This document shows positions 521 to 64,000 of a stretch of 64,000 nt of DNA, piece after piece (within the stretch, counting starts at the first letter, position 1; each line of letters starts with the position of its first letter). A program made the position numbers and the translations under genes. The notes under the pieces are model-generated. The model saw nothing but the letters and a program-made list of their open reading frames with translations. It ran no database searches and was not told the DNA's origin. Source of the stretch: Sipunculus nudus (taxonomy: Eukaryota > Annelida > Sipuncula > Golfingiida > Sipunculidae); NCBI GenBank assembly GCA_026874595.1, contig CM049307.1, positions 75,864,643-75,928,642 on the forward strand, written 5' to 3'.

Positions 521-3500
521 ACACTTGAGCAATTACAATAATTCCCATGGCATGACATTCCCGCAGTTATAAATTGGTGTCATATGATTCAGCAGAACTG
601 GCAAATTATGGTCGGATTTATGTAGTGCCTTGAATTTGCAGATAACTACGTCTAAATCAGTAAAATACTGGTTTCCTGCAAGGACTGGTGATTTTTTGGA
701 GGCTACTTATCCTCTAAGCAAGTACTATTATCTGCTTTTGGTTAGCCATGATAACAGGACAATACGGCAATGTATTACAAAATAAAAACAATGTTACCAT
801 ATATATTTATTTGATATAGACACATACACCATATATAAGTACTTGTGAATAACCAATAGTTAACAGGAGGCTGTATATGCAGTGCTCAACATGAAACTGA
901 TGTACCACTCATCTGAATAATAAATGACAATTATTACTGACCACAACATTATAAATGCATGCCTGATATGCAGGATAAAAGGTGACCCATAATAATGAAT
1001 TTGTTCAGCTTGAAATTATGACTATTCGTGGAGAGCTATAACTGCAGCAACCACACCAGGTATTAAAAATTTTGACATGACATGAAAATGACATTCTGAA
1101 CTTATGTAAAAATAAAGGCACAAGTGATAAAATATAATACACAGTGGATAGTTACTGCTCCTTATCAATCAAAAACTTTAACATAAATGTATAAATTAGT
1201 TCTTGACTAAAAAAGTTGACCACACAATTAAAGATGAATTAACTTGTTTTATATCTCTAATTTAGCAGTTTCATGTTGGTTTCGGGACCATTAGCTTGAA
1301 ACTTGTTTTAAGTACTATCAAGCTAAATTTCAACACGTCCCATTTTTTTATTTTACATGCATTTTCGTGGCCTTTTGATGTACCATATGCCATGTGACCT
1401 GTAATTATCATTGCTCTAAAGGGGAGGGAGAGGGTTCTGCAATCAAGTCTGTCTATATGTATGTAAGCTTGTCTGTCATTCTGTTAATTGTATGTTTGTA
1501 TGTATGTATGTTTATGCAGACCTGAACATAAACTCAAACTAAAGCACATTTCCATTTGGAAATTATATACAAGGTATGTCTTGGTACTCCCTGAAGATAG
1601 CCTGGAATTAACTGGGTGTAAAACGAATATGCCATTGTAGTACACTGTGGCTTTCCCTGACCATTTGGAAAAAGAAATAATACATTTCTTTGATTAATTT
1701 TAGCCAATGTAACCAGATGTAGCCATAGTTAAAACAAACCTATTAAATGCAAAAGGAGATCACCTAATCCAATTGTCCAGGAGGGCAGTTTGCATGGGCA
1801 TAAATACATCACATATATGAAATTGTAAAAGTATCTAAGCCTAAGTTGGTAGGGTTTATGTTGTCACCTAATATATCTGTGTTCACAAATAATATTTTCA
1901 GAAATTCTCAATGATTTGCAATGATTGTGGTGGATCATTTATATTTTGGGCAGGTTTGTGTTGGTGTATGTTCTCTCAGTGTTTTCTAGTTTTGTATTTG
2001 TTTTATATTTATATCTGATATATCCGACTATAACCCTGTTAACAACTAAATGCACAACTGTACGGCAGGAGGTGCATAACTGGAAACATTAAATCTGACA
2101 AACAGTTGTCCTTAAACTGGTTTTGAATTGACTTGCTATGGGCAATTAAAGCCTGAAAAATAATCACTTTTCAAATACTACTTTGTAAATACTATCACAA
2201 TATTTGCAAGGGAGCTTCAAGTATCACAATATCACTTATTTTAAATAATGGTGGCATAAAAAGCTTTGGCCTCTAGACCAGCAGCCTAAGGAAATAAATG
2301 TTAACAGATTAAATACGAAACAAACAGCAATCTCATTATCATCACAAGGTCAACATTTTGCAATGATGAATTAGATTAAATATTGCACTAGCTTAAATAT
2401 ATTAACCCATCACAGGTAATAATCCTGATAAATACTGATACTACACATACTGAGCCACAGATATGAAAACAATATACAAATCTAAGTAATGAGGGATACC
2501 TTCAGATATGGCTTAAATAGCCTGATCATGCATAACATATCCTACCATGTCTGAATAAATGATGTCATATACACTGTGGTAAATTTTACAGCATCTTCTG
2601 TTAATTAATTGGTGTCAGAACATAAATGATGCAATATTTCAGATAAAACATGCTGGGTGTCACGAGTCATTTTGCTCAGTCCCCATACAGCTATTATCTT
2701 AATGTTGTGCAGGTGAAGAAATATTAAGTGACCTATGGCCAAAGGAACTCAGCTCATGGGCTTCCCAACAGCTGCAGTCCAAGCTGTCTGATAATATTTT
2801 CAAAAGGAATCTGTAGCTCAGCAGTGATAAGGCAGGCCTGTCTGGGGATTTTCTGGCCATATATAAACCAATCAATTACCTACACTGTAAGCCTAAATTT
2901 AATTTTGCAATTTTGATTACTAACCTCATTGTACATAAAGAGTGCTGGGACTAAACGTGTAAGGATTGAATCCATCAGTGAATATGACATTGTAGTCTTA
3001 CTTCAATTGCATACCTGGATCTATTAATATAACATTGGTTTCAATAAATATGCAATGCTGACATGAAATGTAATGCTTACTGAAGATTTTGATCCTATTG
3101 CATGCTGGAACTGTCTCCAAACTTCAGGATCATAAACTATTAATTCTAATGTAAAATAAACAAAATGAAGGTAGAATCTGCTAAAAAAAGGAAGACATTA
3201 TTGAACAAAAAATGTATTTACCGGTAATACAAGACATTTTTGTGAGTATGTAATACGGGCCGTTCCTTAGATTCCTGATTCATGAAAAATTACTAGAATA
3301 TGAATTTGAATAAATCTTTTCATAAAGCTGTCACTGTATTACATCCTGCATCAGTACAATGATTTGGTCACTACAAGTTATGAAAGTTTTATATTTATTC
3401 AAGCAGACTTTATATATATATATACTGTTTATTCTCTTCAGATTCTAAAGTACTGATAGCATCTGCAGTGAACATCTGCATTCAAAGGAATGGTAACCAG

Positions 3501-5014: not shown

Positions 5015-8000
5015 CTGAAAAAAAAGAGTACAAAGTCTGAAGATCAATTACATAAGGCACAAGTAATCAGACACACTTTTTATGATGGTTCTGGTGTATC
5101 ATAAAATATCTTCTGATCTGCATTTAGTTGCAGCACATGATATTAATCTTTTAATTTGCTCATAATATCATACATTTTGCAAAAACATGTAAGGTATATT
5201 AACATCAAAGTAGTGTTCCTCTTTATTTAAAAGAAGGAAAATAAACTATAAATTTCCTCATGTAGAATATATTCACAAAGCATGAAAAGCCATAATGACA
5301 AGGAAACAAAGGCATGCTCTCACTGTTACTGGTAATTCTACTTCAGAAGTTGAGATCAACCTAACATCTATTATCATTTTAAAACATTCATGCAACTAAA
5401 CTGGAAGAAATTCTATTAGAGTAAAGTTATCCAAATTTTGACATCATGCCAAGCAGTGTATTAACTGATCTGTGTAACATATTTTGTTACAGCATTTTTT
5501 ACACTTTAACAATAAAGTAAAATTAAACAGAAGTCTGTTCACAAATTGACCTGAGATCAAAAGGGCATGACTTTGCAATAGCATACTATTAGCAGATACT
5601 TAATAAGGCCCCCCTCCCAAGGTCACATCCCAAAATGGTCAAATGTACTATTATTTTATCCAAAAAAAAAATACATTCACACAGCATGAATGACAGCAGA
5701 TAACCTTTCATCAGACAGTTTTTTAATACTGTTCAAGTAACACTATCATGTTTCCTGAATAAAGAAGCACAGGCATTTTATAATACCACATATTGAACAA
5801 AACACACATTTGAAATATCTACCCATCAAAAAGTATGGAATTGCTCAGAGCAATGGTTTGAACCAATATCAGAATATTCTACAAACCTTTTGTCATCTAC
5901 AGAAGCAGTCTCTGTTACTCCTAGTGAGTAACCTGGTAGGAAATGCAGCACCACCTGGTGGCCAGATCCTCCATACTTAATGCTCTCCTCTTCCACTGAC
6001 ACCGCAACAACCTCATCAACCTCAGCCGTTACTGGTCATAAATAACAATACAGATAATGTTTAAAACAGTCTTCAGTGTAACAATACTAAATGCTACTGA
6101 CATGTAATCACCTATTAATCCTCAACCATAAATGGTTAGTAAAAAACAGAAGAACAGGGTCACTCACTGGCCAAAATAAATGAAACATGGTAACTGAGTC
6201 AATGTCAACTGCTAGGTCATGGATGTCATAGAGTCACAAAGGCACCTACTGAGTCACAGAGTCACCACCAGAGTCAAAAAGGCACCTACTAAGTCGCAAA
6301 GTCACCAACTGAGTCACAAAGGCACCTGCTGAGTCAAATATTCATCAACAGAGTCACAAAGGCAACAACTAAGTCACAAAGTCTAAAACAGAGTCAGAAA
6401 GTCACCTGCTGAGTCACAAAGTCACCAACAGAGTCACAAAGGCACCTACTGAGTCATAATGTCACTAAATGAGTCACAAAGGCATCTGCTGAGTCAAAAA
6501 AGCACAAACAAAGTCACAAAGGCTCCAACTGAGTCACAAAGGCACCTACTGAGAGACAAAGTCACCCAACTGAATCAGAAAGTCTCAAACTAAGTAAAAA
6601 AGTCACCAACTAAGTCACAAAGTCACCAACAGAGTCACAAAGTCACCGAAAGAGTCAAAAAGGCAGCTAATGAATCACAAAGTCATCAACTGAGTCATAA
6701 AGGCACCTGCTATGTCACAAAGTCACCAACAGAGTCACAAAGGCACCTATTGAGTCACAAAGTCACCAACTGAGTTAGAAAGTCTCCAACTGAGTCACAA
6801 AGGCATCTACTGAGTGACAAAGTCACCAACTGAATCCGAAAGTCTCAAACAAATTAAAAAAGTCACCAACTAAGTCACAAAGTTACCAACAGAGTCACAA
6901 AGTCACCAACAGAGTCACAAAGTCACCGAAAGAGTCAAAAAGGCAGCTAATGAATCACAAAGTCATCAACTGAGTCATAAAGGCACCTGCTATGTCACAA
7001 AGTCACCAACAGAGTCACAAAGGCACCTATTGAGTCACAAAGTCACCAACTGAGTTAGAAAGTCTCCAACTGAGTCACAAAGGCATCTACTGAGTGACAA
7101 AGTCACCAACTGAATCCGAAAGTCTCAAACAAATTAAAAAAGTCACCAACTAAGTCACAAAGTCACCAACAGAGTCACAAAGTCACCAAAAGAGTCAAAA
7201 AGGTAGCTACTGAGTCACAAAGTCATCAACTGAGTCATAAAGGCACCTGCTGAGTCATGAATTCACCAACAGAGTCACAAAGGCAACTACTGGGTCACAA
7301 AGTCACAAACAGAGTCAGAAAGGCACCTGCTAAGTCACAAAGTCACCAACAGAATCACAAAGGCATCTGCTGAGTCACAAAGTCACCAACTATGTCAAAA
7401 AGTCACACAGTCATCTACAGAGTCACAAAGGCACCAACTGAGTCACAATGTCACCAACAGATTCACAAAAAGATACCTAGAAAAAAGGCACTCACGACCA
7501 TTTTCAAGCTATTTTTAAAACCAAATATTTCTTTGTATTAATCATTCATACAAAAAAGCTACTATAAAAGGGCAAAAAAAGCAAAACTATACACCAAGTA
7601 TTAGCATTTAATTTCTAGAAAGCTTAGAATCTTGATACTCACCAACTTGATGGGTCTTAGGGTCTGTGAAGAATTTTTGGATGAGACTAACTTTCTTGAT
7701 GGAAATTTTGCCCTCCTTTTTATCAATGACACACTCCTATAAACAAGACAGACATGAATTAAATTAAAGAAACTCAACATGCATATATCTACAATTTAAA
7801 AATTTTTTATTCACCATATGTTTCCTTACAATTAGGCCACACCATACAACTGACTGTTCAACACAAGAACCAAGTCATCAGTGTTACCACTAATAACCGC
7901 AAATTTTGGCTCAATTTTCTCCAACAAAATCATTATGTGTTAATAAATGATTTTCATTCATAAAGAGATAAATGAAAATGGATTGAACTTTGTGTTGTTC

Positions 8001-19539: not shown

Positions 19540-20721
19540 AGAATACGGGTAGTCGACAAGCGACTACGTGTATCCGCCAAAATCAGAGAAGGACGGGTGA
19601 AGTGAGGCATGGATTGAGTGGCAAGGGGATATAGAGTTACATATGTAAAATATTAGTATTGGATCTCTGCCACATAAACATGATTGTAGGTGGCGCCACC
19701 TGTTATTTGAACGAGAAACTATCCAAGATATATACACATGCAAAATTTCAAGTGGAAAAGTCAAACCACTGCAGAGATATGAGTGATTTTATCCCACAGC
19801 AGACAAACAGATGGACACTGTGCAAACATGGTTGCAGGTGGCGCCACCTTTTGTTGTGTATGTTATAAAGCTATCCCAGGGCTACATTTGTGTAAAAATT
19901 TTTTCCGGATCGGTCAAACAGTTCCCGAGATATGAGCTTGGATGTCTGCAGCGTTAACATGAATGTAGGTGGCGCCACCTGTCATAAAATCAAGGAAGCT
20001 ATCTAGGATGTATACGCATGCGGAATTTTAGGTGAATTAGTCAAACCATTGCAGAGATATGAGTGATTTTAACCCCAGGCAGATGAACAAATGGACACCG
20101 TGCAAACATGGTTGCAGGTGGCGCCACCTTTTGTTGTGTATGTTATAAAGCTATCCCAGGGCTACATTTGTGTAAATTTTTTTTCTGGATCGGTCAAACG
20201 GTTCCCGAGATATATGGGTTTATGTGTGGAGCGTTAACGTGAATGTAGGTGGCGCCACCTGTCATAAAATTGAGAAAGCTATCTAGGATGTATATGCATG
20301 CCAAATTTTAGGTGAATTAGTCAAACCACTGCAGAGATATGTGATTTTAACCCCAGGCAGATGAACAGATGGACACTGTGCAAACATGGTTGCAGGTGGC
20401 GCCACCTTTTGTTGTGTATGTTATAAAGCTATCCCAGGGCTACATTTGTGTAAAAAAATTTTCCGGATCGGTCAAACGGTTCCCGAGATATATGGGTTTA
20501 TGTGTGTAAACAGACGCACAAACGGACGCTGGGCAGAGACGAAAGGTCAGAGGTCAAGGTCACTTGGTTAGGCACCAGTTCACATGTGACCCGATAATTT
20601 GTGTAAGTTTCGGAAAAATCTGTCCAGTAGTCTCAGAGGAGTTCTCCGGAAACGAACGCGGCGGCGGCGGAACCCGGTCAAAAACATAGTATCCGCAAAA
20701 CTTCGTTTTGGCGGATACAAT
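19540..20721. mobile_element. HINE/pearl-like non-autonomous Helentron-type element, copy 1 (1.18 kb)
   Basis: The left end AGAATACGGGTAG leads into a hairpin (GTAGTCG-ACAAG-CGACTAC) and the subterminal GTATCCGCCAAAA. The right end has a hairpin GTATCCGCAAAAC-TTC-GTTTTGGCGGATAC and stops at GGATACAAT. The centre is a tandem array of alternating units of about 148 and 131 bp. Each carries GGTGGCGCCACC (six copies, starting 19688, 19836, 19967, 20116, 20247 and 20394). Hairpin ends plus a tandem-repeat core fit the pearl elements of bivalves and Drosophila DINE-1-like elements. A second, shorter copy is at 46454-47353. No coding capacity is seen. Confidence 0.75.
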
Positions 20722-38651: not shown

Positions 38652-41600
38652 GTCAGGTCATGTTTATATCAAATAAATTTAAGTATCTCATTTTGGTTAT
38701 TTAAAAAAAACACCTGAAAGACATTAACATGGATAACATGGTCACAAGCCCATCAATGCAAGTTCTAGTTGTACATAAAACACACATACTATAGTAGAAT
38801 ATTTGTCTAATTTGCAATGATAAATGAAATACCCTTGGATTTGATATCAGTCTGCAGTACAGTTAAATAAAAGAATAACCATTAAAATTGTAAGATTACT
38901 ATAAGATCTTCATATGAGATAATGTATTAAAATGCATGAATATGATAATATGACAGTAAATATCACCAGATGGTTAGGTGATATATTTGTAAGGTAAAAT
39001 GATAAGTTTACATCCTCTTTTTGAACACTAAGGTGCTTTTCTTTATTTCTGAACTTCTAAAGTGGTTCTAGTGCTTACTTGAATTTTTTGTCAATTTTAT
39101 TTCAGACTTGTCCATCTTGACCTTAAGGGTGCACCACCTAAACTGTCCTACTATGGAGAGGTAAAGGATTAATTTCTTTGTAATTATTTCATAATTGTAG
39201 GAATAGTAGGGACATTTTCAGCAAGGCTACCTTTCAATACATGCAGACTTTTGTCTCTGTGGGACCTGCTCCGTGCACATGGAGAGCCCCTTTCCATATG
39301 TCTGGATTTCCATTGGATGAACCATTTATTGTCCCTCACTTCCTTGGAAGGAACAGGGGACATTAATTTGGGTTTGTCTGTCTGGTTGTCTATCTGTCTG
39401 TCCCTCTGTCTGTCTGTGAGGTTTTTGTTTCTGTGCATAACTTTCCTAAATTTTATCCAGTTCATTCAAATTTCGGTCGCTGATTGCTCTCGTGCATACC
39501 TAGGTTTGATTTGGTTTTGGAGTGTCTGTCTGTAAATTTGTTCTCACCAGCTCAAAACAAAATTATCAAATTTTGGTCCTATTTCACAACCAAAATTATG
39601 ACATGTGGAGACATCTTCAGGGTACCATGAAAACTAAAACAGAGCCATTATGACATGTGGAGACATCTTCAGGCCAACATAAAAACTGAAACACATTGAT
39701 AAGGCAAGCATGAAATACAACAAGAGGCAAAAGTGGAGGATGTAAATTCCACGAATTAGCTTGTTTTGGTTAACACATGTATTAATAATCATAATTTCTT
39801 AAAATTTAGTGTGATATCTTATTCATTGTTCAGTTCAAACATTTATTCTAGCAAGGCTAGGCTTGAGGCTGATTATAATATAGTATCTCACCAGCCAGGC
39901 TTGCATGGTGATTATATCCTGCTACACTTTACCTGGAGTTGGCTTCCGGGCCGTTTCTTGATAAAAAATTGTCATATATTCTTTTTATTCATCCTTAAAG
40001 CACTTTCAGCTCTTTTATCTTTTATAAAGACAAGGGTTCATACCAGCAACAAGCCCCTGCAGAAATCCAACAGTGCTGGAGTTAAAAAATCTGCCTGTGG
40101 GGCTGGCACCGGCCCATATGGGAAGGGGGAAAATAATATTAGACCAGTTGAATTTTTTTCTGTGTGGGACTCATGTGGGGACCCGCGTGTATGGAAAGGC
40201 ACCTTGACAGTTTAAGTAAGGAGAAACTTGAATGATTACAGATGTTATGATAATTTAGATATAAGAGATTAAGTCTTATCTTATTAAATAAGCAATATGT
40301 GAAAAACATGTTAATATTTGGTAATGTTTAGAACATTTTTATCCTTAAATCTTAATTGACAAAAATATTGAATTAAAGTTTATGATGCAGTAAAACCCAG
40401 GTACTGAAGCAGTGATTTATTATAATTTGAGTGATGACTTTTTTGGGGGAAAGCATGCAATGCTGTAACAAATATCCATTTTGAATTTGCCAGCTTTCAT
40501 GACCATATTTAGTCATGGAGGTAGGCAGGCATAGACAATATATATGTAGTTTAATAGTTTACTGTTACCAGTGAAACAAAGACAATCTGTGGTAAGATAT
40601 TGTGTAATTTCTGCCATAAGATCTTCCCACTGCTCAAGAAGTGGGGAGCGACAGGCCTTCTGATTGAGTATGAAGATATGTTTCCTTACTGGGGTGAACT
40701 GAAGGAGCTGGCAGCACCAAACGCTTACAGGTCAGTAAAGCACAACACTAAATGCTTACAGGTCAGTACAGCACAACACTATAAATGCTTATAGGTCAGT
40801 ACAGCGCAACACCAAATGTTGACATGTCAGTCCAACACAACACCAAATGTTTACAGGTCAGTACAACACAACACCAAATGCTTACACATCAGTTCAAGGC
40901 ACCACCAAATGCTTAGAGGTCAGTCCAACACAACACCAAATGTTTACAGATCAGTACAACACAACACCAAATGCTTACATGTCAGTTCAAGGCAACACCA
41001 AATGCTTACAGGTCAGAACAGCAAAACATCAACACTTATAACATATACAGTCTAACCTCTTTCATTCGCCCCTTGATTATCCGCCAACCTCACCCACAGC
41101 CAACAAATGACAAAGTCCCCATTTCCTTACTACTTATTTACCTGGTTCATTTGCCAGCCTCGCTTTCCACCATCTGCCAGGTTATACCCCAATTAGCCAC
41201 ATTCCCTTGATCATATGCCAACTTCATGACTCCAACTTAAGACAAGTCGGGAATATTTCATCAAGCCAGTGTGTTATCTCTTGGGCTCAGCTGACCTGGC
41301 TGCCTCTGTGTTTATGACATGTCACGCCTCACTGCTTATGGATTATGTACAGGGAGCCACTGATTATGACTTACCATAATTAGTTGTTTGGGGACAGCTG
41401 TCATCAGCCGTGTGACCGGTGCTGATGTTACACCTAGATAGACAACAGCGAACCTATTGTGATTGTCGTCAGTGACGCAGTTTGCTGGACAAAGGGTGCC
41501 TGGGATTCTGTAAGCACCACCATCAGCAATTGTTAGAAACACACAGGCGATATACCCAGTGGTGACCAGCCAAATGAAACAGACGGTCCAGAAGTAATGA

Positions 41601-55200: not shown

Positions 55201-58200
55201 ACCTTATTTTCTTCATCCGCCCTGCTAACTGACTGTCCACTGTCAGATTAAGAGGGGCTAGGCCGTCCGGCGGCGGGGATCGTGAATGATTTACACTGGC
55301 CTCCTCGCCGTCTCAACGGATCCGACCACACTAAATGATATCTGGCAAGCGTCAGCCCTTGACTGTGCTGAACGCCAGCAAGTTAATTGGTGTATTGTAG
55401 AAATTGTATTTTACTGTGCCTCTCGGCCTGTATCCATTCATTACGTACCTTGTAACCCGAACTCCTCCAGTCACCCTGCAACTGTTCTACCCTCAGCCTT
55501 ACACCGATCCGATCAAACTCTCGTCTTTTGCTGGTTCCAAAACCGCACGGACAGGGGCGCCCGATTATCCATTTCAAGCGCCTCTATTTGGTCATTAACT
55601 CGCCGCCCTTTCGCATGTTCACTATTCATGCGGTTCTCCTCATTATCAGTCGGAGGGATTGGGTGTTCAAAATTTGCCTTAAGGTTGCTTATTGTCACGT
55701 TCCGTTCCATCCGTCGTCCCTACCGTTTCTTAGATACGCCTCCCGGAACCGTATGTATATATTACGTGCCCTTCCGTTCGGGATCAATGTGGGCCCTGGA
55801 TTTTTACGCTGCGGGGACTAGCGAAGTCGTCCACACGGTCACTTATTACCTCCGCTCCCAGGGCCTATCTGTGCTCCCTTACCTAGACGATTGGCTTGTC
55901 CATGCGGCCGATCGCTCTCTCTTACTGGCGCACCGCTCCCGGGTTCTCGATTACTCCGGAACCTTGGCTTTCTTGTCTATACAGTGAAGTCCCAGCTCAC
56001 TCCCACCCAGTCCTTCCAGTTTCTGGGTGTGACTCTTGAGTTTGCGTCAGGGACTGCGTCTCTACCGCGCGCATTTGCTCTCAAGCTCAGGACGCCGATT
56101 CGTTTCTTTCTTGCGTCTTGCTGTATCGCTTCTCGTGGCGCTGCCTCTCTTCACGGCACTCTCATCTGGGCCACCAATTTTGTTCCTTTTGGTCGATTTT
56201 ATCTTCGTCCAGTTCAGTCTCTCCTGAGCGCTCCGGGCCTTCTCCATCTCCATTCGGTTCGTCCCGTATCAACGTACGTGGTGGACCCTTCACCCCTGAC
56301 TGGACCTTTCCTTTCTCCTTCCAGCAGTTCCTTTCTCTCAGGGGATCGATTGTATGGTGTTTACTGACACATCTCTACTCAATTGGGGTGCCCATATGGC
56401 TGATCTCCACGCCTAGGGCGTCTGGTCTCCGTCGGCACGCCTCCTTCATATCAATACTTTGTGCCGTCCGTCGCGCGATCTCCCATTGGTCCCCGCCGCT
56501 TCCTATGCCGTCACATACTCGTCATGACCGACCCCTCCACGGTGGTGGCATATGTAAACAGGCGGGGCGGTACTCAGTCTCCCTCACTGATGCAGGAGAC
56601 CTACCTCTTGTTCGATCTCTGTATCACGCTCCGGGACTCGCTCCATGCGTCTTATCTTCCGGGCGTATTGAACTTTCTCACAGACGCCCTTTCACGTCGC
56701 CCCACGTCTCCACCTCCACCCGTCGTCCTTCCACTCTCCGTCCTACAGTGTCTCTTCCCTCGACTGGGGTGTCCGGATATCGATCTCTTTGCTTTCCCTC
56801 CCCCCAGTCCTCGTTCCTACCGGGACCCGTCTACTTCGCCCTCGCGACCGTCTAACTGACCTCCCGCCACACGTTTGGTCTCACCGGTTCTCTCCGCGTT
56901 TCCGGTGCCCTGTCTCATCTGCCGTATCCTCTTCCGTCTGTCCTGTACGGACCAGACTGATCTCCTCCTCATCCTCCCATTCCTCCTGCGACTCCCTGGT
57001 TTCCCCTGTGGCGCTCGCTTTTCTCATGACCCCCCCTTCTTCTAACGCTCCCGATCGATCTCCTGTCCTTCCCACATGCCCATCGTCCAATTCGGTCATG
57101 CCATCTGTGCGCCTGCGTACTCTCATTGGTCATCTCCAGGATAAGGACCTTTCAGGTCTGGCTGCTCTCCTTGCCTTGGCTCCACGTCGCCGTTCTTCGG
57201 ACCTCATCTATGACTCCCGGTGACGTCTCTTCACCGATTGGGTGTCTGACTCTGGAATCTCCTTTAGATCCGTCAATTGCGGCGATTTTGGAATTCTTCG
57301 GTTATTTCCTACGGGATGAACGTTTATCCTAACCGTCTCTTCGTGGCTATCGTGCCGCCCTGCTATCGGTACTCCGTCCATGGGGTCACGATCGTGTCCT
57401 CCGTCATCCGTTGGTGACGGTTTTATCATGGGGGTACATGGCCACGCTTCTCGTCCTCGCTACGTCACTACTTCCTGGCATCTGGACGTTGTCTTCCTTC
57501 ACCTCCACAGGCTTCGTACGGCGCATCTTCTACCTTTGTCTTGGTAAATGGTTTCCCCCTTGCTATTGCATCTGCTGGTCGCCGCTCTGAGCTTTATGCC
57601 CTAGTGGGCGACTCGCCATTTACACAACATTGTGGCTGAAGATGCTTCGGCCACCTTACCTTTCCCTCCGGAATTTATAAGCAGACCCGTCATTTGATGA
57701 TCCTCTGTTAACCTGGCCCGTTCCGGCCCTCCCTCAAGGACAGTACCGTTCAGGGCTCACATTTGCCCTGTTCATGCTTTACGTTACTCTCTTCAAGCTA
57801 CTCATTCTGAAAAAGAGGGGGGGGGGGGGCGCAAGAAGTTGTTTATTTGTGTATAAACTTTAATAGAGAAAATTCTCATTAATACAGAAAAGCTCACAAC
57901 AGTTTATGACCCGTCATTCGATGATCCTCCGTTAACCTGGCCCGTTCCGGCCCTCCCTCAAGGACAGTACCGTTCCGGGCTCACTATTGCCCTGTTCGTG
58001 CTTTACATTACTCTCTTCAAGCTACTCATTCTAAAAAAGAGGGGGGGGGGGCGCAAGAAGTTATTTATTTCAACGAACATCACCATTTCAAACAAAGAAA
58101 TTAGCCCTATCACTATTAGTGCATGGCTAAAAACTACCATTATCTCAGCATATGAATCAGCTTCTCCATCAACCTTAGACCAGCTTCACGTCAAAGCTCA

Positions 58201-61166
58201 TGACATCAGGGCCCTTTCTACATCATTGGGCCATTTATAGTGGATATCCCCAAACCAACTGGTCAAGAAGGCTATTGGGAGTTGCCTTCTACATTCACCT
58301 GCTTATATCTCAAGGATGTCCAATTACAAGCTTCGGGCCTTTAATTCTTGGGCCCTGTGAGTATGCGAGTGCGGTCCTACAATTCTCCAGTCCGTCTTGC
58401 CTCCTGCATCTGTTCCGGCAACGACGTCTTCGGCTGCTCCATCACTGCTGTGATGTTCTCCTCATTCCATCGTTCCAGGTAGGTATCCCCTCCCCAAGGT
58501 TTATCTGTTATATTCTCATTAATACAGAAACAGCTCACAATTATGTTTACATAATAAACCCCCCCCCCCCCCCCCCATTCCCTCCCTGTGAATGGTGGTT
58601 TTGTTAGTAAACTGTTGTGAGCTTTTCTGTATTACAAACAACGCTCCCTCCCAGTCCACTTCGTTCTGCCATCCAAAAAAGTGATTACAGGAAACGGAAG
58701 TGTGACCTGGATACACGGGAACGAGGCGGGATTGGGCGATATGGGCCCAATAAGGGAAAATTTTCGGTTGGCTTACTCTGGCGTATAAACTTTAATAGAG
58801 AAAATTCTCATTAATACAGAAAAGCTCACAACAGTTTACTAACAAAACCACCATTCACAGGGAGGGAATGGGGGGGTTTTCATTATGTCTCCCCCCTCCA
58901 CAGGAGACGTTTTCATTGCCATCTTCTGTCATCGTTGGTCAGTTGTCTTCTGTAGGATATCTTGTGAAAGCGATAACTTATGAAGGGCTGCATATTTTCC
59001 ACCAAAATTTGAAACACTCATTGTTTATCCCAAAATCTTGGAGGAGGTAAAAACCCTGTGACCTTGACCTTCACCTTAAAGGTCAAATCTGCTAAAGTGT
59101 GAAATTTTTGTGAACCTCATAACTTTTGAAGTTTTTATCCTTTTGTCCTGAAATTTGGTGCACCAATTGTTCCTGGCAAGTTTTTGGAAGAGTTTGAAAT
59201 CCAGTGACCTTGACCAGAAACTTCAAGGTCAAAACAGCCAAATTAAAGTTATTGTCTTATGAACACAATAACTTTTGAAGGGCTGCATGTTATCCTCCAA
59301 AATTTGAAACAACAATTGTTCCTACCAAGATCTCTGATAAGTTTGAAACCCAGTGACCTTGACCATGTCTTCAAGGTCAAATCAACCGAATTATAGTTAT
59401 TGTTTGGTGTACACCATAACTCGTGAAGGGCTCTTGTGAACACAATAACTTTTGAAGGGCTGCATATTTTCTTATAAATCTGAAACGTTCATTGTTCCTA
59501 CCAAAACCTTGTTGAAGAACAAAATCCAGTGACCTTAACCTTGATCTTCAAGGTCAAGTTTATGCAATTCTAGGATAATTGTCACCCCCATAACTTTGGA
59601 AGTACTGAAGAATTTTACTTCAAATATGACACACCAGTACTTTCGGCCAAAATCTCATCAGAGTCTGAAAAACAGTTACCTTGACCAGGATCTTCAAGGT
59701 CAAATCTGTTGAAATCTAGAATCATTGTTTTTAGATAGTGCATATTTTACCCCTAATGTTTTGGGATAGCCCATAGGGGGGAGACATATATCTGTTTTTG
59801 CACTGCAAAAACAAAGCCATTCTAGTTTTACCTTGTTTTCAGTGGGGATTATTCCTTTTATTGCATTTCTTGCCTCCAGTGTGGAGATCATATATTGTAT
59901 GATTTATATTCCTTGTTTTGTATGGGGATCATTCCTTTGAATGTATTTCATGTTTTCCAGTGTTGGGAACTAGGGATCATACCTTGTATTTATATTCCTA
60001 GTTTTCTGTGAGGATCATTCCTTTGAATGAATCTCATGTTTTTCAGTGTGGGGATCATCCCTCAGTGCTCATTCCCTGGTGACCAGGTGTACATAGGAGC
60101 CCAGGTTTTACTTTGTACAAAGGCAGATTACAAGCTATTCCTGAAAAATGAAAGGTAAGAAAAAAGTACACCAAACAGTAAAATGAGTAATGATGTCATT
60201 AGGCAGGTTTTTTTTACCCAGACTTTTTTTCACAGTAAAATACAAATAGTGTAAACATTTTAATTTATAGAAGTGTCTACATATAGAAAAATAAGGGTTG
60301 TATATTGAAAAAAATGTGTGTTTTTCAGCAGGTGTGCAAAATTGTTCTTAATTGCTACAATATTTATATGTCAGGCACCACAGTATTCATGCATGGCCTT
60401 GTTTATAAAAAAAAATCACCGATTAAACAATACCTCACAATCTCAGTATACCCACATGTGATGATACATACCTTCCAAATTATGAATTTTTATTCAGTGC
60501 ATAACCCTTATTTCAGTGCCCTGTTGACTATTATATTCCTATGTTTTCCTATATTTTCCTATTGAAAAAGTTTCTTGTATAATTTCCTATATTTTCCAGC
60601 ATTAGACTGTGATCTCCTATATTTTCCTATATGTTTGTATTGCTATTCTGTGTTTCTGATGTTACTGTTATTATTAAATATTTTTGTTATGTAGACCTAA
60701 TAGTATTGAAAACACAGTTGTGCTGTGAAAATTCATATATTTTCCTTAAATTATTCAATGAAACTTCCTGTAATCTCCCTCCTTTTTGTCTTAACTTTTC
60801 CTATAAAATTCCAATATTTCTTTAAGCGTTGGAGCTCTGTTTAGTTTTAATATATAAATATTGTCCTCTATGACACTAATATAAATGTAAATAATATAAG
60901 TATATTCCTGTGTAAAAAAATCCTAGATTAGGGCTAACTCACTTAATGGCATCATTATATATATATTTATATATTTGAAAAAATTCTTTTATGGTTTAGT
61001 GTTATTCTTTGATTATAAAGTTTTTGCTTTGTTTAAATTAAACCTGACCCAGATCCTTTATTTCTTTCATTTTTTCCAGATTAGGAGGATGGATGACAGA
61101 TTATCATATCAAACATAACTACACAAACCCAGCCCACGTCAAGCACTTCCTACCACAAGGCAAACA
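38603..61166 (+). CDS. HEXD: Hexosaminidase D, glycoside hydrolase family 20, thirteen exons, 3' end outside window
   Basis: This is the nucleocytoplasmic GH20 beta-hexosaminidase that removes terminal N-acetylhexosamine, preferring GalNAc in mammals. The exons joined are 38603-38651, 39106-39160, 40621-40730, 43359-43446, 44193-44271, 44809-44894, 45888-46071, 48262-48330, 50968-51163, 51973-52055, 53558-53639, 60047-60154 and 61080-61166. All have GT-AG junctions and matching phases, giving 419 residues from ATG 38620. An in-frame TGA at 38608 fixes the start. Family marks include [42 protein letters not shown] with the catalytic Asp149-Glu150, [15 protein letters not shown] and [18 protein letters not shown]. 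No signal peptide is seen, as expected. Human HEXD is about 486 residues from memory, so some 70 residues lie beyond the window. Confidence 0.97.
39106..39160 (+). CDS. HEXD: HEXD exon, [12 protein letters not shown] motif
   Basis: It encodes residues 12-29, the first strand of the TIM barrel with the family signature [18 protein letters not shown]. It ends in phase 0 at GTAAAG. Confidence 0.96.
39365..39700 (-). repeat. Dispersed repeat related to the interior of the 12984-14123 element
   Basis: The (CTGT/CTGTC)n tract, TTTGGTTTTGGAGTGTCTG and the AGCTCAAAA segment occur here in the orientation opposite to 13790-13960. ATTATGACATGTGGAGACAT occurs in the same orientation as there. The copy is therefore internally rearranged. 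It lies in a HEXD intron. Confidence 0.6.
39766..40215 (+). other. 149-codon open frame without recognised function
   Basis: It lies inside a HEXD intron. The translation shows no family motif and composition like its surroundings. I would not call it a gene. It may be chance, or a cassette exon without known relatives. Confidence 0.1.
40621..40730 (+). CDS. HEXD: HEXD exon, [11 protein letters not shown] motif
   Basis: It encodes residues 30-65, ending LAAPNAY plus two bases of a serine codon. The last 21 bases plus the donor GTCAGT are repeated as the minisatellite that follows directly. Confidence 0.96.
40710..41042 (+). repeat. 31 bp minisatellite made from the HEXD exon end and its splice donor
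   Basis: The exon text CAGCACCAAACGCTTACAG followed by GTCAGTAAAG is the first unit. About ten more follow at exactly 31 bp spacing (one is longer by 2), with unit starts at 40731, 40762, 40795, 40826, 40857, 40888, 40919, 40950, 40981 and 41012. Many keep CTTACAG|GTCAGT intact. A 93 bp (three-unit) block is duplicated: 40826-40918 and 40919-41011. A pogo-like element follows directly. Confidence 0.95.
41048..42165. mobile_element. Pogo/Tigger-like DNA transposon derivative, copy 2
   Basis: It has the same CAGTCTAACCTCTTTCATT ends as copy 1 and TA on both sides. It is homologous along its length to 16449-17712. On the plus strand, near 41690-41900, a broken reading frame with acidic residues then [11 protein letters not shown] resembles the C-terminal part of pogo-type transposases. 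It sits directly after the 31 bp minisatellite in a HEXD intron. Confidence 0.75.
42187..43175. mobile_element. Second pogo-like family, CAGTAAAACCCCGC ends
   Basis: Left end CAGTAAAACCCCGCTAA and right end complementary to AGTGAAATCCCGCAT are bordered by TA. Subterminal GGTCGTGTTAGCGGGGTGGTCGTG phrases recur at both ends. Inside, a 99 bp segment (around CTAAGTCCAAGCTGG) is tandemly duplicated at 42819 and 42918. It is non-coding. Confidence 0.65.
43175..43222 (+). repeat. (TA)n microsatellite
   Basis: About 24 TA units directly abut the right end of the pogo-like element. A shorter TA run borders its left end, as expected for an insertion into a pre-existing TA tract. Confidence 0.95.
43359..43446 (+). 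CDS. HEXD: HEXD exon, [10 protein letters not shown] motif
   Basis: It encodes residues 67-95 ([20 protein letters not shown] then LVQTFGHFE), a barrel strand forming part of the substrate pocket in GH20 enzymes. The acceptor is TTCTTTCAG and the donor GTGCAG. Confidence 0.97.
44193..44271 (+). CDS. HEXD: HEXD exon, FVLKHEKF
   Basis: It encodes residues 96-121 ([20 protein letters not shown] then LCPMNP), matching the family segment after the QTFGH strand. The donor GTAAGC is in phase 1. Confidence 0.96.
44809..44894 (+). CDS. HEXD: HEXD catalytic exon, HIGADE
   Basis: It encodes residues 122-150. The exon ends exactly after the codon of the general acid Glu150, preceded by Asp149, which positions the substrate acetamido group in GH20 catalysis. 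The intron therefore follows directly after the catalytic pair. Confidence 0.97.
45888..46071 (+). CDS. HEXD: HEXD exon, IMWDDM motif
   Basis: It encodes residues 151-211: [11 protein letters not shown], a helical segment, then [11 protein letters not shown]. The WDD motif is conserved in the family. The donor is GTGAGC. Confidence 0.96.
46085..46285 (+). repeat. Degenerate ~18 bp tandem repeat after a HEXD exon
   Basis: Phrases of the type TTGGTCCATTTGGTCAATG recur about ten times with many substitutions. They create overlapping open frames on the plus strand that are not genes. Unlike the two other HEXD arrays, the unit does not match the exon end before it. Confidence 0.7.
46454..47353. 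mobile_element. HINE/pearl-like element, copy 2 (0.9 kb)
   Basis: It has the same AGAATACGGGTAG start with hairpin (GTAGTTG-ACAAG-CGACTAC) and the same GCGGATACAAT end as the element at 19540. The core has four units. Their palindromes start at 46597, 46745, 46874 and 47029. The one at 47029 is intact, the one at 46745 is intact over GGTGGCGCCACC, and the other two are mutated. It lies in a HEXD intron. Confidence 0.75.
47757..47963. mobile_element. 207 bp MITE
   Basis: ACCAGTGTTA at the left and TAACACTGGT at the right are exact inverted ends. Internally GACCACCTGTC phrases face each other. It is a small DNA-transposon derivative in a HEXD intron. Confidence 0.5.
48262..48330 (+). CDS. HEXD: HEXD exon, LVEPMVWYY
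   Basis: It encodes residues 212-234 ([20 protein letters not shown] then LPE). The acceptor is a CT-rich tract ending CTACAG and the donor GTAAGT. Confidence 0.95.
48369..49450 (+). repeat. Degenerate tandem repeat with AGGTCA-type phrases
   Basis: After TTTTTAGCTCAGCTGACTTT (inverted relative to the end of the repeat near 24460), five or so units of about 170-180 bases follow. Each has AAGGTCAAAG-TCAAGGTCACAG and a CCAAACCTTTCA segment. It lies in a HEXD intron. Confidence 0.6.
50968..51163 (+). CDS. HEXD: HEXD exon, AFKGATGP motif
   Basis: It encodes residues 235-299: [20 protein letters not shown] and ATGP, then a helical stretch ending YCLTGWQ. This is the largest HEXD exon. The donor is GTAACA. 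Confidence 0.97.
51973..52055 (+). CDS. HEXD: HEXD exon, [12 protein letters not shown] motif
   Basis: It encodes residues 300-327. The [20 protein letters not shown] segment is near-identical across the family and closes the barrel. The donor is GTAACA. Confidence 0.97.
52410..52925 (+). repeat. Dispersed repeat with ATGACGGGCGTATTATGGTA
   Basis: It has a start phrase CCATCATATGACGGGCGTATT, a GTCTGTCTGTCAGTC tract and sub-repeats around AGGTCA-AGGTCAC and TTCATGAAACTCA. A phrase near 52925 (ACGACGGGCTTATTATG) resembles its start. It is non-coding. Confidence 0.5.
53558..53639 (+). CDS. HEXD: HEXD exon, residues 328-354
   Basis: It encodes [20 protein letters not shown] then LPLNPFQ. The SFTEEV stretch corresponds to the family helix after the barrel. 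The donor is GTAAGT. Confidence 0.93.
53685..53937 (+). repeat. Interspersed repeat family R1, copy D
   Basis: It has the same orientation as copy A: TGTGAATATTCCTTGATAAG, CTACACCAAAATCTGATCGA, CACACACATAATTG and ACATACCCTCCTGGCAGAGG. It lies in a HEXD intron. Confidence 0.6.
54335..54510 (+). repeat. Left inverted terminal repeat of the DIRS element
   Basis: GTAAACATAATTGTGAGCTG through AAGCCAACCGAAAATTTTCC to AGGTCACACTTCCGTTTCCT is mirrored at 58669-58839 with about one difference per ten bases. Confidence 0.88.
55370..58340 (+). pseudogene. DIRS polyprotein remnants: RT, RNase H, tyrosine recombinase
   Basis: RT pieces occur in two frames between 55528 and 55990. They include a [11 protein letters not shown]-like start and the catalytic box [11 protein letters not shown] near 55873-55905. 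RNase H remnants lie at 56524-56705 ([11 protein letters not shown], then [15 protein letters not shown]). The recombinase shows box [16 protein letters not shown] at 57559-57603. Box [15 protein letters not shown] starts at 58187, and the candidate nucleophile Tyr codon is at 58306-58308 in CLYLKDV. Frame changes between all blocks mean no full protein can be made. Minus-strand frames here are GC-rich shadows. Confidence 0.88.
57684..58060 (+). repeat. 224 bp tandem duplication inside the DIRS recombinase region
   Basis: The block GACCCGTCATT to GCGCAAGAAGTT recurs 224 bases later (57684 and 57908). Between them sits a 65 bp piece (57840-57905) of the right inverted terminal repeat. The unit therefore combines coding sequence and a terminal fragment. 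Confidence 0.85.
58516..58634 (+). repeat. Internal complementary region of the DIRS element
   Basis: 58516-58560 is the reverse complement of the outer end of the left terminal repeat. It shares the left-end variants AACAGCTCACAATTATGTTT. After a poly-C run, 58570-58634 is the reverse complement of the outer right end (58812-58877), nearly perfectly. Fused complements of both ends are the defining feature of DIRS1-type elements. Confidence 0.87.
58669..58839 (-). repeat. Right inverted terminal repeat of the DIRS element
   Basis: It is the reverse complement of 54335-54510. It continues outward to about 58877 (CACCATTCACAGGGAGGGAA), a part the left end lacks. Confidence 0.88.
58885..59787. 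mobile_element. 0.9 kb repeat with 13 bp inverted ends and five ~150 bp inner units
   Basis: ATGTCTCCCCCCT at the left and AGGGGGGAGACAT at the right are exact inverted repeats. Inside, GTGACCTTGACC followed by a CTTCAAGGTCAA phrase recurs at about 59050, 59200, 59352, 59528 and 59676. The DIRS element ends directly at its left border. Confidence 0.6.
60047..60154 (+). CDS. HEXD: HEXD exon, residues 355-390
   Basis: It encodes [20 protein letters not shown] and [16 protein letters not shown]. The phase (1 base in, 2 out) joins exons before and after. The acceptor is TTTTTCAG and the donor GTAAGA. Confidence 0.9.
61080..61166 (+). CDS. HEXD: HEXD exon, residues 391-419, last one in the window
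   Basis: It encodes [20 protein letters not shown] then KHFLPQGK plus two bases. The family has a related GW-x(n)-YH segment here. Its last 50 or so bases and the donor GTGAGT are the first unit of the array that follows. Confidence 0.93.
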
Positions 61167-64000
61167 GTGAGTCACAACATAACCACACAAACCCCACCCA
61201 CATCAAGCACTTCCTACCACAAGGCAAACAGTGAGTCACTCAACATAACCAAACAAACCCCACCCACTTCAAGCACTTCCTACCACAAGGTAAACAGTTA
61301 GTCACTCAAGATAACTACACAAACCCCACCCACTTCAAACACTTCCTACCACAAGGCAAACAGTAAGTCACTCAAGATAACTACACAAACCCGGCACAAT
61401 TCAAACACTTCCTACCACAAGGGAAACAGTGAGTCACTCAACATAACCAAACAAACCCCACCCACTTCAAACACTTCCTACAACAAGGTAAACAGTAAGT
61501 CACTCAAGATAACTACACAAACCCGGCACAATTCAAACAGTTCCTACCACAAGGCAAACAGTGAGTCACTCAACATAACCAAACAAACCCCACCCACTTC
61601 AAACACTTCCTACCACAAGGTTAACAGTAAGTCACTCAAGATAACTACACAAACCCGGCACAATTCAAACAGTTCCTACCACAAGGTTAACAGTAAGTCA
61701 CTCAAGATAACTACATAAACCCGGCACAATTCAAACAATTCCTACCACAAGGTAAACAGTAAGTCACTCAAGATAACTACACAAACCCGGCACAATTCAA
61801 ACACTTCCTACCACAAGGTTAACAGTAAGTCACTCAAGATAACTACACAAACCCGGCACAATTCAAACAGTTCCTACCACAAGGTTAACAGTAAGTCACT
61901 CAAGATAACTGCACAAACCCGGCACAATTCAAACACTTCCTACCACAAGGCAAACAGTAAGTCACTCAAGATAACTGCACAAACCCGGCACAATTCAAAC
62001 AGTTCCTACCACAAGGCAAACAGTAAGTCACTCAAGATAACTGCACAAACCCGGCACAATTCAAACACTTCCTACCACAAGGCAAACAGTCACTCAAGAT
62101 AACTACACAAACCCAGCCCACATCAAGCACTTCCTACCACAAGGCAAACAGTGAGTCACTCAACATAACCAAACAAACCCCACCCACTTCAAGCACTTCC
62201 TACCACAAGGTAAACAGTTAGTCACTCAAGATAACAACACAAACCCCACCCACTTCAAACACTTCCTACCACAAGGCAAACAGTAAGTCACTCAAGATAA
62301 CTACACAAACCCAGCACAATTCAAACACTTCCTACCACAAGGCAAACAGTGAGTCACTCAACATAACCAAACAAACCCCACCCACTTCAAACACTTCCTA
62401 CCACAAGGTAAACAGTAAGTCACTCAAGATAACTACACAAACCCGGCACAATTCAAACACTTCCTACCACAAGGTTAACAGTAAGTCACTCAAGATAACT
62501 ACACAAACCCGGCACAATTCAAACAATTCCTACCACAAGGTAAACAGTAAGTCACTCAAGATAACTACACAAACCCGGCACAATTCAAACACTTCCTACC
62601 ACAAGGTTAACAGTAAGTCACTCAAGATAACTACACAAACCCAGCACAATTCAAACAGTTCCTACCATAAGGTTAACAGTAGGTCACTCAAGATAACTGC
62701 ACAAACCCGGCACAATTCAAACACTTCCTACCACAAGGCAAACAGTAAGTCACTCAAGATAACTGCACAAACCCGGCACAATTCAAACAGTTCCTACCAC
62801 AAGGCAAACAGTAAGTCACTCAAGATAACTGCACAAACCCGGCACAATTCAAACACTTCCTACCACAAGGCAAACAGTCACTCAAGATAACTACACAAAC
62901 CCGGCACAATACAAACAGTTCCTACCACAAGGTTAACAGTAAGTCACTCAAGATAACTGCACACACCCGGCACAATTCAAACACTTCCTACCACAAGGCA
63001 AACAGTCCCTCAAGATAACTACACAAACCCGGCACAATTCAAACAGTTCCTGCCACAAGGCAAACAGTAAGTCACTCAAGATAACTGCACAAACCCGGCA
63101 CAATTCAAACACTTCCTACCACAAGGCAAACAGTCACTCAAGATAACTACACAAACCCGGCACAATTCAAACAGTTCCTACCACGAGGTTAACAGCAAGT
63201 CAGTCAATATAACTACATGCACCTTGCCTACTTAAACACTTCCTACCACAAGGTTAACAGTAAGTCACTCAAGATAACTACACAAATCCCGCACAATTCA
63301 AACAGTTCCTACCACAAGTTTAACAGTAAGTCACTCAAGATAACTACACAAACCCGGCACAATTCAAACACTTCCTACCACAAGGCAAACAGTCACTCAA
63401 GATAACTACACAAACCCGGCACAATTCAAACACTTCCTACCACGAGGTTAACAGCAAGTCAATCAATATAACTACATGCACCTTGCCTACTTAAACACTT
63501 CCTACCACAAGGTTAACAGTAAGTCACTCAAGATAACTACACAAATCCTGCACAATTCAAACAGTTCCTACCACAAGGTTAACAGTAAGTCACTCAAGAT
63601 AACTACACAAACCTGGCACAATTCAAACAATTCCTACCACAAGGTTATCAGTAAATCACTCAAGATAACTACACAGACCCTGCCCACTTCAAACATTTCC
63701 TAACACAAAACAAACAGTGAGTCACTCAAGATAACTACATAAACTCCACCCATGTCAAACACTTCCTACCACAAGGCAAGCAGTAAGTCACTCAAGATAA
63801 CTACACAAACCCCACCAATGTAAAACCCTTCCTACTCCATGACAAACTGTAAATCACTCAACATAACTACACAAACCCCACCAATGTAAAACCCTTCCTA
63901 CTCCATGACAAACTGTAAATCACTCAACATAACACAAACCCCACCAATGTAAAACCCTTCCTACTCCATGACAAACTGTAAATCACTCAACATTACACAA
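61101..64000 (+). repeat. 66 bp minisatellite made from the HEXD exon end and its splice donor, running off the window
   Basis: The unit is the exon tail (AACTACACAAACCC to ACCACAAGGCAAACA) plus GTAAGTCACTCAAGAT or GTGAGTCACTCAACAT. About 43 copies follow the exon. Most keep a consensus GTAAGT or GTGAGT donor. A subset lost TAAG (62 bp units) and with it the donor. A 920 bp block (thirteen 66 bp units plus one of 62) is duplicated, for example 61231 against 62151. The last units, from about 63800, form a divergent subfamily (CCAATGTAAAACCCTTCC). The frames at 63217-63405 and 63476-63703 are repeat translations. Confidence 0.97.

Follow-up and report, generated by a model that had tools for sequence, protein, structure and literature searches.

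The question raised by this locus is which splice donor is used when one exon is followed by dozens of copies of its own end, and whether such a series of donors serves the gene. In the window analyzed here, a 64,000-bp stretch of DNA (G000:C2:75864643-75928642) from a 1.43-Gb genome, an exon of a gene that we take to be HEXD runs into a tandem array whose 66-bp unit carries the 3' end of the exon together with its donor. An earlier note on this DNA had proposed that the length of the array could tune the output of functional HEXD. According to the present analysis, the array is, with a probability of roughly 0.8, a splice-junction-spanning minisatellite of the type called a 'mirage' in amphioxus, probably a tolerated passenger and not a selected regulator, with the first donor most likely being the one used.

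Host gene and the exon at the array

The array begins on the penultimate coding exon of the gene (Table 1). A pyrimidine tract and AG precede this exon, and GTGAGT follows directly 3' of it. Moreover, the exon joins the end of the preceding one (...AATGAAAG, ending at 60154) and the start of the last one (A/TTGCTAGAACG..., from L003:2992, where L003 is the adjoining 9.9 kb past the window end) in a single open frame. The acceptor, the donor, and the frame continuing across the junctions therefore bear out the exon end at 61166 that the earlier note had given.

The gene was identified through two comparisons. Three consecutive exons, from 40621 to about 44271, matched the beta-N-acetylhexosaminidase chain 8qk1_A (E=1.1e-20), and a paralog at C1:101.06 Mb (101.063-101.066 Mb), which passes the Pfam cut-off for Glyco_hydro_20 with 46.1 bits, aligned without gaps through the exon junction at 61166. 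Identity to the paralog was 51-56% in the body or catalytic part and 28% in the C-terminal part. Two results count against this identity: the window gene was absent among the 19 matches of the genome-wide search with the Glyco_hydro_20 model, and its exons reached E=0.06 at best against that model. The last two exons matched no Pfam family. The name HEXD, which the earlier note had also used, is kept here. The paralog itself is a second HEXD-like gene, laid out in a few long open stretches.

As the alignment of the exon tail to the paralog extends over the junction, the tail is coding sequence of old date from which the array was derived. The same direction, from exon to array, follows from unit 1 being the end of this exon and the exon being ancestral HEXD coding sequence. 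An array that had invaded the exon was ruled out, since HEXD sequence is conserved in the exon tail and aligns gap-free with the paralog.

Table 1. Coordinates of the features of the HEXD locus (window positions unless marked L003) and assignments of exon peptides at other array loci.
Feature	Position	Strand	Evidence and remarks
HEXD exon	39106..39160	+	Sequence and paralog alignment
HEXD exon, phase 2	40621..40730	+	Homology; donor GTCAGT at 40731
Second junction-seeded HEXD array, 31 bp x about 10	40715..41032	+	Tandem Repeats Finder (TRF), sequence; begins on end and donor of exon 40621-40730
HEXD exon upstream of array exon	60047..60154	+	Start uncertain: 60047 or about 60066
HEXD exon, penultimate coding	61080..61166	+	87 nt, phase 2 end CA/GTGAGT; acceptor AG 61078-61079, donor GT 61167
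66-bp donor-bearing array, 47 units	61114..64000 in window; ends at window-equivalent 64175 (L003 about 318)	+	TRF and wrap-around alignment
First donor GTGAGT, presumed used	61167..61172	+	Sequence; same nine-mer as donor 2
Higher-order duplication	61244..62885	+	Units 3-6 = units 17-20 (14-unit offset); units 8-15 = units 20-27 (12-unit offset)
Five 62-bp units, each lacking 4 bases over the donor	First 62036..62097 (unit 15); others start 62824, 62952, 63080, 63339	+	Alignment
Last HEXD exon, 72 residues	L003:2992 to stop 3209-3211	+	Open frame shared with exons 61080-61166 and that ending at 60154
L008, ABCC2-like			PDB, 1.5e-7
L016, thioredoxin			Passes Pfam curated cut-off
L019, permease			E<0.01
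L042, LRR			E<0.01
L043, Kunitz			Passes Pfam curated cut-off
L048, TFIIH p52			E=1.3e-10, passes Pfam curated cut-off
L050, beta-lactamase-like			E<0.01
L053, PTB			E<0.01

Structure of the 66-bp array

Within the window, TRF reported 44 copies of 66 bp at 61115-63990 (score 3961). When the adjoining DNA was included, wrap-around alignment gave 47 units from 61114 to 64175, the final one being partial. The earlier note had described about 43 units running on past the window; the array does run on, by only about 175 bases, and its count is now 47. Most units are 66 bp long (36 of the 47), and the others measure 62 bp (five), 65 bp (two), 63 bp (two), 64 bp (unit 1), and 56 bp (the partial last unit). 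The usual unit consists of 53 exon bases and 13 intron bases, with the exon end itself sitting in unit 1, so that the earlier description of the unit as an exon end plus its donor was accurate.

The array also has an internal history. Unit-by-unit identities within the duplicated block (Table 1) were 97-100%, or 95.5% in a single pair; they reflect the duplication of a block of about 14 units, with the two-unit offset arising later. The farther a unit lay from the exon, the lower was its identity to the exon unit (Spearman -0.74, 45 units), and the units from 42 onward were among the most degenerate (identity 0.70-0.75). Two DNA searches of the genome, in which very common words were skipped and the best candidates alone were scored, gave 21 and 15 matches and no copy of the array away from this locus. 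The earlier note had named a dispersed satellite occurring without HEXD as one observation that would speak against it; this candidate was ruled out, as every match of both searches lay at the HEXD locus.

Regarding the donor itself, conservation of its hexamer ranked 43 of 61 six-column windows over the first 46 units. The donor bases are thus kept no better than the other columns of the unit, and this speaks against length tuning under selection.

Donor sequences and the consequence of using a later donor

GTAAGT was found in 23 units and GTGAGT in seven, i.e., in 30 of the 47, which agrees with the earlier statement that dozens of near-identical good donors follow one exon. The other 17 donors comprised GTAAAT (6), GTCACT or GTCCCT (5), GTTAGT (2), GCAAGT (2), GTAGGT (1), and one lost site. 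The exon-side letters were ACA in 40 of the 47 units. On a donor scoring table, units with GTAAGT or GTGAGT reached 6.0-6.9, which falls inside the span of nine other HEXD donors (3.1-11.3).

Reading through donor 1 gives CAG TGA at 61165-61170, with the stop at 61168-61170 being the first, at +4. Because unit 1 retains its own donor, every later donor gives this TGA at once, as the earlier note had recognized. Its proposed escape through the 62-bp units does not hold: unit 1 already reads CAG TGA, and the 62-bp units, which begin with unit 15, cannot rescue the frame. By sequence logic, use of a later donor would cost the 72 residues encoded by the last exon. A coding, translated repeat was ruled out by the TGA that stands right after the exon part of unit 1.

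Arrays at other exon edges

The HEXD array is not a one-off, as another array lies on a second donor of HEXD and others lie on other genes. In the second HEXD array (Table 1), eight similar junction copies were found, and at least 22 exon nt were repeated. The genome was surveyed for closely spaced triples of a donor word. Triples of CAGGTAAGT gave 329 matches, with 18 loci among the matches listed (to C7:75.04 Mb), all of which were fetched; triples of CAGGTGAGT gave 426 matches, with 24 loci among the matches listed (to C11:7.7 Mb), of which 20 were fetched. Four of the 24 listed CAGGTGAGT loci belonged to one dispersed repeat family and were set aside. Unlike the single-locus arrays, tandem repeats whose units resemble CAGGTGAGTGATCATCTCTGATTATGCTTA form a dispersed family, observed at C4:62539539, C5:16203769, C6:21869540, and C8:57413638.

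At 28 of the 38 loci inspected by eye, the array started on a likely coding exon end, recognized by an acceptor, an open frame, and the repetition of the end (14 of 18 for CAGGTAAGT and 14 of 20 for CAGGTGAGT); the share becomes 28/42 if the four unfetched loci are counted as misses. Five loci were unclear (L004, L045, L052, L056, and L057), and at five others no exon was seen by eye (L010, L011, L012, L039, and L051). Across the 28 loci, a script counted 8-49 repeated exon bases (median 28.5); L015, L017, L038, L049, and L055 repeat only 8-10, and their seeding is less certain. The period was a multiple of 3 at eight of the 28 loci, and the assigned frame was open to the second donor at four. 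These counts give no sign of units being kept translatable. At one other locus, J18, the array had at least 80 units.

Exon peptides of 28-71 residues from 22 of the 28 loci were compared with Pfam, and some also with PDB. Matches with E<0.01 were obtained for eight of them (Table 1), and the Pfam curated cut-off was passed only by L016, L043, and L048. The remaining 14 peptides had no match at E<0.01 in these comparisons; L007 resembled a PH domain (0.016), and the resemblance of L015 to DNA-PKcs was weak (0.61). Outside the 38 loci, an array with a 116-bp unit was observed behind an SRPK1-like exon at C1:4.43 Mb (L026, 7.8e-13), and one with a 62-bp unit behind a TPR-like exon at C1:2.46 Mb (L025, 1.3e-6). 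The HEXD array is probably one of many at exon edges in this genome.

The donor words were then set against two decoy words, TGAATGGAC and ACTGGAATG, over the stretch common to all four match lists (C1 to C5:14.9 Mb), with matches less than 10 kb apart being merged. In this stretch, 13 CAGGTAAGT and 11 CAGGTGAGT triple-array loci were counted, compared with 3 and 6 for the decoys, whose loci were counted from the lists and not fetched. The exon-seeded share of the donor loci was 9/13 and 8/11. Single CAGGTAAGT sites, array copies included, numbered 15332, compared with 12946 for the reversed word. Donor-word arrays are thus in moderate excess, mostly exon-seeded ones, in a comparison that does not separate junction, gene-body, and tolerance effects.

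Arrays seeded at acceptors were also found. Among ten fetched non-simple loci of the acceptor word, the exon start lay inside the unit at three by eye (L035, L036, and L037), and in each of these it forms the final unit of an array in the preceding intron. L035 (C2:26.897 Mb) and L037 (C2:26.930 Mb) are near-duplicates 33 kb apart, and L036 lies at C2:30.683 Mb. At L031 the array stops exactly at the acceptor, while at L032 it runs beyond the fetched end; at five of the ten loci no exon was seen by eye. The exon peptides of L035 (no match) and L036 (E=0.068) had no convincing Pfam match. As the acceptor-word search was dominated by TTTC repeats, no rate was derived from it. Seeding at donors only is not supported, since acceptor-seeded arrays exist.

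Comparison with known systems

The earlier note knew of no described class of exon-junction-derived arrays of this size. Such a class is already described, and it is the scale and the lineage that are new. In two papers on amphioxus, 'mirages' are presented as tandem repeats across exon-intron boundaries, at either edge of the exon and in many cases with the AG or GT signals, in Adh3, the globins BflGb6 and BflGb9, troponin C, and PGBD5 (PMC3087553, PMC3902484). They are described as unstable in length, and reverse-transcription PCR was reported to suggest that regular splicing is undisturbed (PMC3087553). The HEXD array resembles them in that its unit crosses the exon-intron boundary, its splice signal is kept in many but not all copies, and several genes of the present genome are affected, with either exon edge serving as the seed by eye. 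It differs in its 47 units, and the genome in the at least 80 at J18; moreover, the genome is probably that of a protostome and not of a lancelet, and the arrays are known here from sequence alone. The block duplication in the HEXD array is no more than an indirect sign of length instability. The microRNA bantam, mature sequence included, was observed in this genome and scored 73.2 bits, the cut-off being 61. Bantam is a protostome-specific marker.

A human array of the same build was also available for comparison. The 31-bp variable number tandem repeat (VNTR) of CBS, c.1444_1467+7(16_21), is polymorphic with 16-21 repeats (PMC2630376); by this notation its unit comprises the last 24 coding bases and 7 intron bases. 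The gene and unit are different from those of HEXD, and the copy number is under half of that at HEXD. In duplicated human genes, internal tandem repeats located at exon-intron boundaries were reported to yield novel introns through cryptic sites (PMC2812944), and intron gain was attributed to tandem genomic duplication of a segment bearing splice signals (PMC4974935). The former share with HEXD a minisatellite at an exon-intron boundary, whereas the HEXD exon boundary is apparently unchanged. The latter shares tandem duplication, whereas the HEXD copies lie inside an existing intron and no new intron is inferred. Intron minisatellites are also reported for earthworm metallothionein, with no statement in the accessible text that they span a junction (PMC12783039). 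Among the papers listed by the literature search, few of which were opened and with most subscription papers outside its coverage, none was seen to report comparable arrays from a protostome, molluscs included.

Origin of the array and alternative explanations

The favored explanation, that of a tolerated mirage-type minisatellite, runs as follows. Tandem duplication carried a 66-bp stretch, comprising the 3' end of the HEXD exon and its donor, into the intron, and the array grew from there by ordinary minisatellite turnover, including the duplication of the block of about 14 units. Exon definition would most likely pair the acceptor of the exon with the first donor, and the 46 downstream copies would leave with the intron, by analogy with the amphioxus mirages. 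Any use of a later donor would place TGA right after the codon CAG.

The tuning of HEXD output proposed in the earlier note would require the opposite, namely that later donors compete for U1 as poison donors and yield truncated or decayed mRNA, with array length setting the output like a rheostat. The 30 GTAAGT or GTGAGT units, with scores equal or close to that of donor 1, and the immediate TGA behind each later donor are what such a device would need, and the reported length variation of amphioxus arrays of this build would supply the variable (PMC3087553). The low rank of the donor hexamer and the amphioxus splicing result, as far as the same source reports it, leave this proposal without support; similar arrays also lie on other genes, some of an essential type, and the genome has a second HEXD-like gene. 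We consider it improbable. An assembly artefact or expansion error is far less credible still: the assembly of tandem arrays is error-prone, but the units show ordered point changes, a gradient with distance, and a discrete block duplication, and the same architecture recurs on other genes.

Several points weigh against tolerated passage with use of the first donor. Donors 1 and 2 share an identical nine-mer, and 28 more GTAAGT or GTGAGT units score equal or nearly so; donor 1 has no sequence advantage. In classic experiments with duplicated donors, the intron-proximal site is reported to have been frequently favored. Third-codon-position columns of the unit were more variable than the others (0.838 vs 0.920 and 0.941 for positions 1 and 2; permutation p=0.008, uncorrected), which would not be expected of a pure passenger; this otherwise unexplained pattern might stem from exchange with the coding exon. 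The exon calls were made by one reader, by eye and without a blind control, and the decoy comparison used two words with small counts and unfetched loci. Furthermore, the donor-word excess means that neutrality alone is not proven.

This excess leads to a further explanation, which is compatible with a tolerated array: splice junctions or gene bodies may favor the birth of arrays, for example through slippage linked to transcription or R-loops. The higher number of donor-word than decoy loci and the presence of acceptor-seeded arrays would fit such a hotspot. On the other side, the decoy set is small, a gene-body effect is not separated from the survival of tolerated duplications, and lone CAGGTAAGT sites are already commoner than the reversed word. 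A mutational hotspot is accordingly regarded as unlikely, though less so than the tuning of HEXD output. In a broader and tentative form, to which we give somewhat more weight while still leaning against it, exon edges would be a genome-wide source of long arrays bearing splice sites, perhaps in hundreds of genes, with essential genes among them, the spliceosome would pass over tens of identical donors further downstream, and arrays may indeed be born preferentially at exon edges.

Other features of the window and genome

A further array, of 20 bp x 61, lies at 6231-7469 and seems to belong to an intron of a gene on the minus strand. Nine bases of its unit, which reads AGTTGGTGAC on the minus strand, recur at an exon end with its donor near 7638 (CAAGTTG/GTGAGT), about 170 bases away, as judged by eye. 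At 55286-56900, in a HEXD intron, long open frames with a YLDD motif were seen, probably from a retroelement reverse transcriptase. The palindrome GGTGGCGCCACC occurs in 280-bp tandem repeats at both 19677-20506 and L003:775-2167. Rfam gave no match to the window at the gathering score.

In the assembly, COX1-family frames of 577-578 aa with near-equal scores were found on C60, C61, C62, C66, C72, C74, C75, and C89, and C123 carries a bacterial-type cytochrome oxidase cluster, with no tRNA or tandem repeat found there. The COX1-bearing contigs are probably bacterial scaffolds in the assembly, from symbionts or contamination.

Significance

In the literature searched, mirages appear as an oddity known from a few genes of lancelets, alongside a single human VNTR built in the same way. 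A genome in which from a few to 80 or more near-identical donors stand behind one exon offers a natural experiment on 5' splice site choice, and it informs how minisatellites are tolerated at exon edges and whether such arrays seed new introns. The arrays are also a hazard for annotation, as their exon-end matches mimic extra exons. If true, their occurrence across the genome would be a large-scale natural demonstration of the rule that, for a defined exon, the first donor prevails.

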